7,543 nucleotides of DNA from Magnetococcales bacterium (lineage in GTDB: Bacteria; Pseudomonadota; Magnetococcia; Magnetococcales; JADFWU01). The stretch lies in assembly GCA_015234045.1 (NCBI GenBank), contig JADFWU010000086.1:1-7543 (forward strand), read 5' to 3'. Below, one piece after another: positions 1-7,543 of the stretch; the stretch's first letter is position 1; every line of letters begins with the position of its first letter. The position numbers were made by a program, and so were the translations under genes. A model generated the notes under the pieces. The model was not told the DNA's origin. It worked only from the letters and a program-made list of their open reading frames with translations, and ran no database searches.

Positions 1-446
1 CTTCTCTTCGACTGCGTACCAGCTTTCCCGACCCTGAACCCGTGGTAATGCCGGTGGATGGCATGTTGTTGGACTTTCCTTTCAGCGAACGTGGCGAGAC
101 CATACCCGCCAACGCCCATATGGTGATGATTGCACCTCTTGGTATTTCTACTACTGCGGTTGCGGTGATTCCGAGCAGTGATATCGGTTTTGTCCATAAA
201 GGCGGCCGCGGTTTAGTCAAGCTGGATGCCTATCCTTACCATCGCTTTGGTGCGGTTTATGCCCAAGTTACACGTATTCAACCAATACCCAATACCACGG
301 ATTTCAAGGTGACCTTAACCTTGAACAAAACCACCATCAAAGTGAACGAACGTCAGGTGCCTATTCTGCCTGGGCTGGCTGCTCAAGTGGATATTCTGAC
401 CGAAAAAAGACGTATCCTGGATATGCTTCTTGAGCGGTTGGAGTAA
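1..446 (+). CDS. HlyD-family membrane fusion protein of a peptide exporter, C-terminal part (5' end outside window)
   Basis: The frame is open from base 3 to a TAA at 444-446, giving 147 residues with no start in the window, so this is the 3' end of a longer gene. The sequence resembles the C-terminal part of periplasmic adaptors of type I secretion. It has a 'PVDGML' segment typical of the second lipoyl half-motif, followed by GETIPANAHMVMIAP, where HlyD proteins carry a 'G..v..g..l..i.P' motif. A beta-rich stretch comes next, and the tail 'PILPGLAAQVDILTEKRRILDMLLERLE' matches the conserved 'pGm.a.a.I.t..rril.yll.pl' ending. Such proteins sit in the inner membrane and link an ABC exporter to an outer-membrane channel; no TolC-like gene is visible. 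The exporter ATG lies 9 bases after the stop, and that gene's ribosome-binding site (GGAG, 440-443) is inside this coding end, which indicates one operon. Family assignment is firm; the substrate is inferred from the next gene. Confidence 0.88.
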   Translation, partial: SLRLRTSFPDPEPVVMPVDGMLLDFPFSERGETIPANAHMVMIAPLGISTTAVAVIPSSDIGFVHKGGRGLVKLDAYPYHRFGAVYAQVTRIQPIPNTTDFKVTLTLNKTTIKVNERQVPILPGLAAQVDILTEKRRILDMLLERLE

Positions 447-455
447 CAAACCACC

Positions 456-2657
456 ATGGAAACAAGCACATACCCCTTACCTTGGCGCAGTCGGTTTTTC
501 TCTCCACATGTGGTACGACAACACAGTGCCATGGATTGCTCGGCAGGCTGTCTGGCAACGGTTGCTCGGTATTTCGGCAAGCAGATCAGTATCAACCGTG
601 TTCGTGAGTTGATCGGCGTAGGACAGTCTGGTGCCTCTCTCAACCAGATTGAACAAGCCGCTAGAGCGCTCTCCTTCCACACTGAAACCCGATTTTCCAC
701 ACCGGATGATCTTCGTAAACAACAGCTACCTGCCATCATCAACTGGAAGGGCTATCACTGGGTTGTGGTGTTCTCCATCTCGGCCAAAAGCGCTACCATT
801 GGTGATCCTGAACGGGGCTTGCGTACCGTATCTTTGAAGACTTTTGCCAAAGAGTGGACCGGCTATACCCTGCTGTTAAAACCCACCGAAAAATTTGACC
901 AACTGGAAAACAGCCCGCCACCCTTGCGCCAACTGTTTCCCTACTTTAATCGCTATCGCAAAACCATCTTTGAGATCCTGTTTGCCTCGGTAATGGTTCA
1001 AATAATGACTCTGACCATACCGCTGTTCTCAAAATTTTTGCTGGATGAAGTGATTCTGAAAGAGGAACAGCGCTGGCTTGCATCGGGATTAACCGCGGTA
1101 TTCTGTCTGATATTCATGAATGCCATCATGACTTGGCTGCGCCAGGAGATGGCGTTGCAAGTGGGTATGCGAGCGAATTTAAAGATTATTACTCAAGTCT
1201 ATCAACGCCTGTTGCGTCTACCGCTCTCTTTCTTTGAGTCCCGAAAAGAAGGCGACATTATCAGCCGCTTTGAAGAGCATAAGAAGATCACCCAATTCAT
1301 CACTAATTCGGGCCTTCAGATGCTGGTCAATCTATTGACCGCCTTTCTCTATATCGCGGTAATGCTCTATTTTCACGCTGAATTAACGGCGGTAGCCTGT
1401 GTCTTTCTCCTGTTTCACATCGTAGCAATGATCTATATTACGCCTCGGATTCGACAGGCGTTCCGTGAGACCTTCGTCAAGGGCGCTCAGGCGGAGAGTC
1501 ACGTAATCGAATCACTTCAAGGTGTAGGCACCATCAAAGCACTGGGTGCCAACCACTACAGCCGCTGGCAGTTTGATAATCTCTATGCCGGTTTGGTTAA
1601 CACCTTTTTTGGTGGTCTACGCTACACACAAGCTTCTACCCTTTTGGCCCAGTTGGCGGATCATCTCAGCGGTATTGCCGTACTATTCTACGGAGCCACC
1701 TTGGTGCCCATGGGTGAGTTATCGGTAGGAACCCTCATTGCGCTCACGCTGCTGACACGCGCACTGCATCAACCTGCTACGGAGATTCTTGAAAGTTGGG
1801 ATGCCCTGCAAGAAGCGCTCAATGCGGTAGATCGTCTCAACGATATCCTGGAAAAAGATCCTGAGTACCTGCCCGCGCAGATGGACAGCAATCGAATTCA
1901 CATTCCCAGGGCACGCGGACATATCCGTTTCGAGTCGGTCACCTTTCGACACACTTCGGACAATCGACATAATATTATTCAAAATATCAATCTGAATATT
2001 CAACCCGGCGAACGCGTGATGCTGGTAGGACGCAGTGGAAGCGGAAAATCTACACTGCTTAAGCTGTTGTACCGTTTTCATGAGCCGACCAATGGTCGGA
2101 TTTTGCTGGATGGTTTCGATATTGATGATCTATGGCTGCCTTCACTGCGTGAAAGCGTTGGCTTTGCTGGACAAAAACCGCTTATCTTTCAAGGATCCAT
2201 TAGAGACAATATCGCCATCGTCCGCCCAAATGCCTCACTGAAGCAAATTCAACAAGCGGCCGAACTGGCTGAAGCGCACCGCTTCATCTCTGCCACACCA
2301 GGCGGTTACGATGCCCTATTGGCAGAACGGGGTTCCAATCTATCAGGCGGACAGCGTCAGCGGTTGGCACTGGCACGGATGTTTTTGTTGGATCCACCCA
2401 TATTGGTGCTGGATGAAGCCACATCCGCGCTTGATCCCATCACTGAGACCCGTGTACTCAACAATATCAACAGCCACTTTACCGGACGCACCATCATTGC
2501 CATTCCGCACCGGCCTCGCTTCTGCGAATCTGCGGATCAGATTGTGGTGCTCAACAAGGGAATTATTGTAGAGTCAGGTAATTATGAAACTCTGATCAAA
2601 CGACGCGGCTTATTCCATCACCTCATGCGCACCTACCAGGACACACCGATGGTGTAG
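456..2657 (+). CDS. Peptidase-containing ABC exporter (C39 bacteriocin-processing family)
   Basis: This is a complete 733-residue protein with the usual length and layout of double-glycine peptide exporters, which cut the leader from a small peptide in the cytoplasm and export the core using ATP. Residues ~18-145 are a C39 cysteine peptidase. The 'QHSAMDCSAGC' motif gives oxyanion Gln22 and catalytic Cys28, 'GYHWVVV' gives His101 and 'GDPERG' gives Asp117, so the triad looks intact. Residues ~165-440 are a six-helix transmembrane domain. Residues ~485-733 are the nucleotide-binding domain, with Walker A GRSGSGKST (525-533), Q-loop in 'GFAGQKP', signature LSGGQ (629-633), Walker B ILVLDE ending at Asp653-Glu654, D-loop SALD and H-loop His685 in 'IPHRP'. 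The ATG at 456 has GGAG 12 bases upstream and places the peptidase domain where the family has it. It follows the HlyD gene in the same operon and converges on a double-glycine peptide gene. A functional exporter is very likely; its actual substrate is inferred. Confidence 0.96.
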   Translation: METSTYPLPWRSRFFSPHVVRQHSAMDCSAGCLATVARYFGKQISINRVRELIGVGQSGASLNQIEQAARALSFHTETRFSTPDDLRKQQLPAIINWKGYHWVVVFSISAKSATIGDPERGLRTVSLKTFAKEWTGYTLLLKPTEKFDQLENSPPPLRQLFPYFNRYRKTIFEILFASVMVQIMTLTIPLFSKFLLDEVILKEEQRWLASGLTAVFCLIFMNAIMTWLRQEMALQVGMRANLKIITQVYQRLLRLPLSFFESRKEGDIISRFEEHKKITQFITNSGLQMLVNLLTAFLYIAVMLYFHAELTAVACVFLLFHIVAMIYITPRIRQAFRETFVKGAQAESHVIESLQGVGTIKALGANHYSRWQFDNLYAGLVNTFFGGLRYTQASTLLAQLADHLSGIAVLFYGATLVPMGELSVGTLIALTLLTRALHQPATEILESWDALQEALNAVDRLNDILEKDPEYLPAQMDSNRIHIPRARGHIRFESVTFRHTSDNRHNIIQNINLNIQPGERVMLVGRSGSGKSTLLKLLYRFHEPTNGRILLDGFDIDDLWLPSLRESVGFAGQKPLIFQGSIRDNIAIVRPNASLKQIQQAAELAEAHRFISATPGGYDALLAERGSNLSGGQRQRLALARMFLLDPPILVLDEATSALDPITETRVLNNINSHFTGRTIIAIPHRPRFCESADQIVVLNKGIIVESGNYETLIKRRGLFHHLMRTYQDTPMV

Positions 2658-2676
2658 GATGGATTTTACACCGGAA

Positions 2677-2701
2677 AAGAGGAGAAAGGGGTTCTCCTCT
2701 T
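2677..2701. terminator. Perfect hairpin between convergent genes, candidate bidirectional terminator
   Basis: AAGAGGAGAA (2677-2686) and TTCTCCTCTT (2692-2701) pair perfectly over 10 bp around a 5-base loop (AGGGG). The hairpin lies 19 bases after the exporter stop and 32 bases after the peptide-gene stop on the opposite strand, where a shared terminator would be expected. Neither side has a long uninterrupted T-run directly after the stem, so it is a weak or non-canonical intrinsic terminator. It could instead be a 3'-end stabilising structure. Confidence 0.5.
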
Positions 2702-2733
2702 CATGAAGCCCTCTTTCGTGATTTTTCGGAGAA

Positions 2734-2916
2734 TCAATCAGAAACGTTAAAGAAAAAGCCACCGGTCAAGGGTGAGCCGAAGCCCCCAAAAACCTCTTTC
2801 TCTTCATTGGCGGACAGCTTGCGTGCCCGAACTGGAAGATCGCGTATTTCGATCTTCTGGGGTTGTTTGTTGAAACGGGTATGTTCATCGTTCTGAGCAT
2901 CGACCCTGCTCTTCAT
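2734..2916 (-). CDS. Double-glycine leader peptide, putative secreted peptide precursor
   Basis: This encodes 60 residues read from an ATG at 2916 (MKSRVDAQ...), with AAAGGA about 9 bases upstream. A second in-frame ATG at 2967 would add 17 residues and also has a possible AAGGG site 8 bases upstream, so the start is not settled. The leader ends in LSANEEKEVFGG (residues 34-45). Counting back from the glycine pair, it has Leu at -12, Ser at -11, Glu at -8, Val at -4 and Gly-Gly at -2/-1, the consensus recognised by C39 peptidases. The predicted core is FGSPLTGGFFFNVSD: 15 residues, no cysteine, rich in Phe and Gly, with a second Gly-Gly at 52-53. I do not recognise the family. The core is much shorter than usual class II bacteriocins, so a signalling peptide, a small RiPP or a bacteriocin-like peptide are all possible. 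The gene faces the C39 exporter, its probable partner. No modification or immunity gene is visible. Confidence 0.75.
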   Translation of the reverse strand: MKSRVDAQNDEHTRFNKQPQKIEIRDLPVRARKLSANEEKEVFGGFGSPLTGGFFFNVSD

Positions 2917-3067
2917 TGAGGTATTTCCTTTGTTCGTTTGGGGTGATCGTTCAAATAACAGGTCCATGCGTTTGGCCCTTAGTCTAAAATGCGTTAATCA
3001 ATCCTTTTGTTGGTTGAAATTTAACAGAAACCACACACAAATATCGACTAAAATTTTTCTATTGGCA

Positions 3068-3180: not shown

Positions 3181-3200
3181 ATTCCCGCAGAGACGGGAAT
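3181..3200. repeat. dRS3-like 20-bp inverted repeat
   Basis: The sequence attcccgcagagacgggaat fits the ATTCCC-N8-GGGAAT layout of the dRS3 element known from Neisseria. Similar 'CATTCCCGC...GCGGGAATCCAG' repeats are common between genes in many beta- and gammaproteobacteria. The flanks here (gtc before, ccag after) match that wider form. One copy is visible. Whether it is repeated elsewhere in the genome cannot be seen from this window. Confidence 0.6.
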
Positions 3201-3330: not shown

Positions 3331-3374
3331 CGAACCAGCTACAGGCGAACCAGCTACAGGCGAACCAGCTACAG
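3331..3374. repeat. Three tandem copies of a 15-bp unit
   Basis: The unit CGAACCAGCTACAGG occurs at 3331-3345 and 3346-3360 exactly, and at 3361-3374 without its last base. The copies are identical, which suggests recent slippage expansion. The unit length is a multiple of three and would read Glu-Pro-Ala-Thr-Gly repeats in one + strand frame, but the surrounding frame is not a credible gene. Confidence 0.9.
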
Positions 3375-3386
3375 CGTGCCGGGTTT

Positions 3387-6222: not shown

Positions 6223-7503
6223 CTATTTTCTATTATTTTTCAACACCAATTCCGTACCATCCTCGTTCGCATCCACAACAATCTCATCCCCTTCCATAAA
6301 CGAACCCGACAACAACGCCTCTGCTAGAGGATCTTGCACTTTTCTCTGGATGACTCGTTTGAGCAACCGCGCACCATAGGCGGGATCATAACCCCAATCC
6401 GCCAGCAATTGGGTCGCTTTTTTGCCGATTTTCAGTGTTAATTTCCGATCTACCAGCATTTCCCGGAGTCGCTCCAACTGAATAGCGACAATATCATGCA
6501 TCTGTGAACGCGATAGATGATGAAAAATGACCACCTCATCCACTCGGTTGAGAAATTCGGGACGGAAATGGTTTTTCAAGTCCTCAAAGACCCGGTTTTC
6601 CATCCTCTCATGATCTTCAATCTCAGCATCCAAATGACGAGAACCGATATTAGAGGTCATCACCACCACGGTATTACGAAAATCCACGACCCGTCCTTGT
6701 CCATCAGTCAAACGCCCATCATCCAACACCTGTAACAGAATATTGAACACTTCTGGATGGGCTTTTTCGATCTCATCCAGCAGAACAACGCTATAAGGAC
6801 GGCGGCGAACCGCTTCGGTAAGCTGCCCGCCCTCTTCATAGCCCACATAGCCCGGCGGTGCGCCCACCAGACGCGATACCGCATGCTTTTCCATGTATTC
6901 GGACATATCCAACCGAACCATGGCCTGCTCGTCATCAAACAGAAACGCAGCCAATGCCTTAGTCAATTCGGTTTTACCCACGCCAGTCGGTCCCAGCAAC
7001 ATAAACGATCCGATAGGACGATTGGGATCTTGCAACCCAGCCCGCGCCCGCCGTACCGCTCTGGAAACCGCTGATAAAGCGTCCTCCTGCCCGACCACAC
7101 GCCGCGCCAACCTCTGTTCCATCTTTAACAGCTTGGCTCGCTCACCCTCCAACATCCGCGACACCGGAATACCGGTCCAACGCGACACCACACCCGCGAT
7201 ATCTTCCTCAGTCACCTCTTCTCTGAGCAACCGATTGTTTTTGCTGCCACTCTCCTGTTCAGCCAACGCATCAATACGGCGTTGAAGATCAGGTATCATG
7301 CCGTGGCGCAGTTGGGCTACCTTATCAAAATCACCCTGACGCTCGGCAACCTCCTCTTCTTGGCGCTTCTCTTCCAACGCCTCTTTCAGATGCTGAAGAC
7401 CTTCAATCCCCTCTTTTTCTTTCTGCCATATTGAAGTAAGTCGCGCAGAATTCTCCTTGAGATTGCCCAACTCTTTGCTCAGTGCGATGGGCAGTCTTGA
7501 ATA
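6223..7503 (-). CDS. clpB: Chaperone ClpB, C-terminal half only; broken in the M domain (probable pseudogene or contig-end artefact)
   Basis: ClpB is a cytoplasmic Hsp100 disaggregase that works with DnaK; full-length proteins have about 860 residues. Only the last ~415 are here. Counting from the TTG at 7470, residues ~1-80 are the end of the coiled-coil M domain. The second AAA+ domain follows, with '[10 protein letters not shown]' at 97-106, Walker A GPTGVGKT (160-167), pore loop GYVGYEEGG (Tyr208), Walker B VVLLDE (Asp232-Glu233), sensor-1 Asn274, arginine finger Arg309 in 'LNRVDE' and sensor-2 Arg368 in 'YGAR'. The C-terminal domain is complete and a terminator follows. Upstream of 7503 the frame meets TGA (7504-7506) and TAG (7534-7536), and neither other - frame continues the M domain. 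TTG at 7470 has no ribosome-binding site and the first in-frame ATG is residue 58. The first AAA+ domain is therefore absent, and I do not expect a functional chaperone from this copy. Confidence 0.9.
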
Positions 7504-7543
7504 TCAAGCAGGAGATTTGGCGTTAGCGGATACCTATTTCAAG
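7487..7543 (+). other. Possible start of an opposite-strand TPR-like coding fragment
   Basis: The last 57 bases read on the + strand as [19 protein letters not shown] without a stop, running off the window. '[15 protein letters not shown]' follows the tetratricopeptide pattern (Y..aGD...A...y.kA). It appears exactly where the ClpB reading on the other strand fails. It is too short for a firm family call, and the true start, if any, is unknown. Confidence 0.3.

Follow-up and report, generated by a model that had tools for sequence, protein, structure and literature searches.

A candidate double-glycine leader peptide with a 15-residue core beside a C39 exporter in a Magnetococcales bacterium

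The window, the whole stretch of DNA analysed here, is an entire contig (C102) of 7543 bases from a draft genome of 3.65 Mb in 117 contigs. It opens inside a gene for a membrane fusion protein and continues into a peptidase-containing ABC exporter on the same strand, beyond which lies a small gene of the opposite strand. Features of this region, several of them defined by comparison with a locus on plasmid pLBY of Leptolyngbya boryana, are as follows.

3..446, plus strand: HlyD-family membrane fusion protein, C-terminal part, cut by the contig start (TIGR01843, 1.6e-19).
456..2657, plus strand: C39 peptidase-containing ABC exporter (PCAT), 733 aa (Pfam C39, ABC_membrane, ABC_tran).
507..890, plus strand: C39 peptidase domain of the exporter, with Q22, C28, H101 and D117 (Pfam C39, 1.7e-30).
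2676..2702, minus strand: stem-loop and short U run 3′ of the peptide gene (fold -14.4 kcal/mol, z -2.6).
2734..2916, minus strand: precursor peptide gene, 60 aa, MKSRV...NVSD (open reading frame and translation; codon usage).
2737..2781, minus strand: predicted mature peptide FGSPLTGGFFFNVSD, 15 aa, cysteine-free (sequence; cleavage site inferred).
2782..2916, minus strand: leader LSANEEKEVFGG, residues 1–45, with GG at its end (sequence; gapless match with the pLBY peptide leader).
2818..2853, minus strand: distal leader element IEIRDLPVRARK, residues 22–33 (DLPxRA in common with FDVQDLPARA of pLBY, at equal distance from GG).
2832..2860, no strand assigned: 11-bp hairpin within the leader-coding part (terminator scan and folding).
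2926..2931, minus strand: Shine-Dalgarno-like AAAGGA, 9 bases ahead of the ATG at 2916 (sequence).

The peptide open reading frame (ORF) is supported as a real small gene with host-like codon usage. Its codon log-ratio is 0.166 per codon, within the 0.10–0.30 of the neighbouring genes, whereas the two shifted frames give about -0.3 to -0.4. Its GC content by codon position (0.57/0.37/0.55) is close to that of the neighbouring genes (0.58/0.38/0.54). The first-pass annotation had placed the ORF at 2734–2967; an ORF is indeed present there, but that span fits a 77-aa version read from the first, upstream ATG, whereas the 60-residue sequence to which the annotation referred occupies 2734–2916. 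Although the upstream ATG is likewise preceded by a possible ribosome-binding site (AAGGG), the 60-residue form is preferred because of its AAAGGA site and because the codon score drops to 0.111 once the 17 extra residues are included. The stem-loop at 2676–2702, absent from the output of the consensus terminator scan, is a possible weak terminator of the peptide gene; the hairpin at 2832–2860 is terminator-like on the plus strand, and may therefore end exporter transcripts too.

The exporter matches PCAT1 (4ry2) with an E-value of 4.4e-119, and the four C39 residues listed above (Q, C, H and D) are common to PCAT1 and the Leptolyngbya exporter, in agreement with the earlier view that an exporter with intact catalytic residues lies next door. 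It is the genome's only C39 protein above the Pfam cut-off; a second, sub-threshold C39 match lies on contig C30, near HlyD and a TolC-like gene. Four TolC-like proteins in the genome exceed the curated cut-off. Another HlyD C-terminal fragment is found near a contig start elsewhere in the same genome (L098; G000:C65:666-809). Counting against a partnership of peptide and exporter, the peptide gene (minus strand) is convergent to the exporter (plus strand) and lies outside the exporter operon.

The contig's YidC is closest to proteins of same-order genomes (49–57%, others 32–51%; the exception outside the order is one 74% match, over 129 residues only), and the contig therefore sits well with its assembly. 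In five relatives, each of a different family (L114–L118; tblastn), rpmH, rnpA and yidD precede yidC, and the gene past yidC may, from its opening residues, be mnmE. No exporter lies next to yidC in these five relatives, save for a short ATPase match in one. Since peptide and exporter occupy the place of the post-yidC gene in the window, the locus has probably undergone a local insertion or rearrangement. Between the peptide gene and yidC lie a short tandem repeat around AGCTACAGGCGAACC (3337–3375) and a palindrome, ATTCCCGC-N5-CGGGAAT (3181–3200), neither of which occurs in the fetched loci outside this contig. At the far end, the ClpB frame (minus strand, 6223–7470) meets stops beyond about 7500, and in 7471–7543 the plus strand has an opening frame (21 protein letters, not shown); this end (7471–7543) is possibly a misjoin or a broken gene.

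The leader has the anatomy of a C39 substrate, as had been claimed: L(-12), E(-8), V(-4) and the GG pair (residues 44–45) match the described pattern, with hydrophobic residues at -12 and -4. A feature passed over by the first-pass annotation is the Glu at -7, which departs from the hydrophobic preference at that position and counts against reading the ORF as a C39 substrate. C39 peptidases favour a hydrophobic residue at -7, a key anchor; the preference was shown to be strong for LahT, where replacement of Leu-7 by Lys or Asp strongly impaired cleavage (PMC6363468). The L(-12), E(-8), V(-4), GG motif arises in 1.8e-4 of shuffles of the peptide protein, and together with an upstream [IVLF]xDL in 1e-5. 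Among 3,328 similar-sized ORFs in the fetched loci, a single other ORF carried the stricter motif, and it too is GG-leader peptide-like and lies at the locus of another C39 exporter. No curated GG-precursor family of NCBIfam or Pfam matches the peptide, up to E 10. The predicted core contains one Thr and two Ser, and a second GG within it that, if used, would yield FFFNVSD. The earlier description of the core as 15 residues without cysteine stands, but a core this short is not without precedent, the GG precursors of cyanobacteria being 28 to 164 aa in total length (PMC3140520).

The exporter's closest match, recovered in the plasmid search, is on L. boryana pLBY (C39-ABC WP_017292304; 46% identity, full length), with the next matches at 37% or less. 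The HlyD fragment is 36% identical to the pLBY HlyD (WP_017292305) directly upstream of that exporter. Upstream of the pLBY exporter lie, in order, the short HlyD gene, a second and longer peptidase-domain ABC exporter (1005 aa), a MauE/DoxX protein, a peptidylprolyl isomerase and an 81-residue protein annotated ‘hypothetical protein’ (WP_026149169), and a LuxR-type regulator is also found at the locus. The leader of the 81-residue peptide, QEFDVQDLPARATVVSMVALSSIYGG, aligns without gaps to the window leader, QKIEIRDLPVRARKLSANEEKEVFGG, up to the GG, with 9/26 positions identical and with DLPxRA and GG equally spaced in both (IEIRDLPVRA in the window). The pLBY leader has Leu at -7. The GG-anchored leader score is 38, a value that 1 of 200,000 shuffles reached (shuffle mean -17.8, sd 9.6); the runner-up among 957 GG-anchored stretches scored 11. 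Of the 266 ORFs read in the pLBY stretches, the peptide was the top BLASTP match (0.002, next 7.3). When 5,300 ORFs were searched blind, however, it came fifth (0.040), and a phmmer search gave it 0.63, both values lying among chance matches; the case therefore hinges on the prior link to a related exporter. Part of the DLP-coding DNA is covered by the palindrome at 2832–2860 and could be kept for another reason, which counts against leader homology, as does, for the pairing, the presence of two C39 exporters on pLBY, which makes the partner of its peptide ambiguous.

The two cores bear no visible likeness to one another: that of the window has 15 residues and no cysteine, that of pLBY 42 residues and six cysteines. 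The prediction that a conserved leader would go with a variable core beside C39 exporters thus holds in one relative, and the lack of any such relative, named beforehand as the finding that would tell against the reading, was not what emerged. IEIRDLPVRA, which had been proposed as a recognition element, is supported as such because the one relative that was found retains it, next to the most closely related exporter and despite an unrelated core. The suggestion of a peptide family gains a relative with a shared leader, but the ‘family’ consists of two members, as only the one relative was found.

Searches elsewhere were largely empty. Nothing convincing was found for the peptide in 61 genomes (its own and relatives), including 0/47 order relatives with a convincing copy, nor among species-genome contigs, viral contigs, phages and plasmids (the phage and plasmid matches, E 5 to 9, were judged from match tables alone); a leader-plus-GG query of 398 phylum genomes likewise gave no convincing homologue. 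The ORFs under the matches of two of these searches were read, and none encoded a similar GG-leader protein. With the exporter as bait, genome contigs and viral contigs returned no match, and its best relatives in the order, the phylum and a second class sample had about 30% identity across the N-terminal 467 residues.

Small ORFs with IxDL...GG leaders occur near long C39 exporters at L054, L055, L087 and L088 (two genomes of one family) and at L104 (Caballeronia); many have Asn-rich cores, some stand in runs of three or four, and three that were tested fell short of every curated NCBIfam or Pfam cut-off. Kinship of these leaders with that of the window was considered and rejected, and their similar anatomy is treated as likeness rather than homology, because a leader profile built from the L054/L055/L087/L088 genomes scored the window ORF no higher than other window ORFs and BLASTP against one of those peptides gave no alignment. 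One alignment of leaders included the window's own leader, so that the window match of that search is built in. In a further genome from the family of those two, L075 (1435–1611) holds a 58-aa ORF with LSREAMTKVRGG and a 22-residue tail past the GG.

The 60-aa ORF is probably a GG-leader precursor that is cut by, and exported through, the neighbouring type I system. The leader would dock on the exporter's C39 domain through a GG-proximal helix and the DLPxRA element, the C39 domain would cut after Gly45, and the freed FGSPLTGGFFFNVSD would leave the cell via an ABC-HlyD-TolC type I channel; cleavage, export and partner specificity are all inferred. A GG-leader peptide with a C39 exporter is a known kind of system, of which this is probably a new case with a short core.

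Among systems to which it may be compared, the pLBY locus is the most similar, with an exporter related over its whole length, HlyD directly upstream and a leader alignable to the GG without gaps, but it differs in its long six-cysteine core and in its second exporter, isomerase, MauE/DoxX protein and LuxR-type regulator. In Synechococcus elongatus, the C39 exporter PteB processes and secretes the small GG-motif proteins EbfG1-4, which serve in biofilm development, not killing; the likeness is by description only, and their mature parts are of 6–7 kDa, encoded by four genes on a single transcript (PMC4997328). Cyanobacterial GG precursors of groups III–V, again likened by description, combine diverse short cores with HlyD and a short-type exporter, that is, one with C39, membrane and ATPase domains but no N-terminal nucleotide-binding domain (PMC3140520); the window peptide falls in no curated precursor family. 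In ComC-type pheromones, the substrates of ComA, a GG leader with L(-12) and E(-8) likewise precedes a short cysteine-free core, but the ComA consensus has Leu at -7 (PMC6363468) where the window leader has Glu, and the window contig has no sensor kinase or regulator.

What FGSPLTGGFFFNVSD might do outside the cell is a matter for guesses, of which the leading one, held tentatively, is a secreted intercellular signal, favoured by the lone peptide gene, the short core free of cysteine and the lack of any visible immunity or modification gene. The contig holds no sensor kinase, regulator or pheromone receptor, but missing immunity, modification and regulatory genes mean little, as the contig stops inside HlyD. 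A short antimicrobial, with the action of a class II microcin though of unusually small size, is a less likely role: a GG leader, C39 exporter, HlyD and TolC-like proteins constitute the class II microcin export route (established knowledge; PMC9746304), but the core has just 15 aa, and the flanking intergenic DNA has no immunity-like small membrane ORF, albeit on a contig cut upstream of HlyD. Membership of the class II microcins themselves was rejected, a long core being required after the GG. Killing is not to be assumed, since both biofilm factors and presumed bacteriocins are known among the GG proteins of cyanobacteria (PMC4997328, PMC3140520); a matrix or surface role is slightly less likely again than an antimicrobial one.

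An improbable variant is that the product is a RiPP, its core modified by enzymes encoded past the contig start before cutting and export. Conserved distal leader elements typify enzyme-recognised leaders, and a redox membrane protein (MauE/DoxX) and a peptidylprolyl isomerase lie at the pLBY locus; against this, the contig, incomplete as it is, carries no modification enzyme, and the core offers no Cys, one Thr and two Ser. That the ORF arose by chance over the exporter 3′ region and terminator hairpin, with a coincidental leader likeness, would suit the mostly empty homologue searches, the hairpin and the Glu at -7, but is very unlikely given the coding statistics (codon usage and GC by position), the Shine-Dalgarno site, the rarity of the motif and the pLBY leader match.

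The exported-precursor reading points out a small gene missed by family libraries and names a specific 15-mer open to synthesis and detection in culture fluid. No work on secreted GG peptides of magnetic cocci turned up in a literature search, and even a negative test would therefore be informative. One leader type and one exporter type link two phyla here. More speculatively, a leader-exporter module may have passed between cyanobacteria and a lineage of Pseudomonadota, its cores freely exchanged, and in this bacterium would secrete a linear peptide of 15 residues that might be the first peptide signal known from its group.
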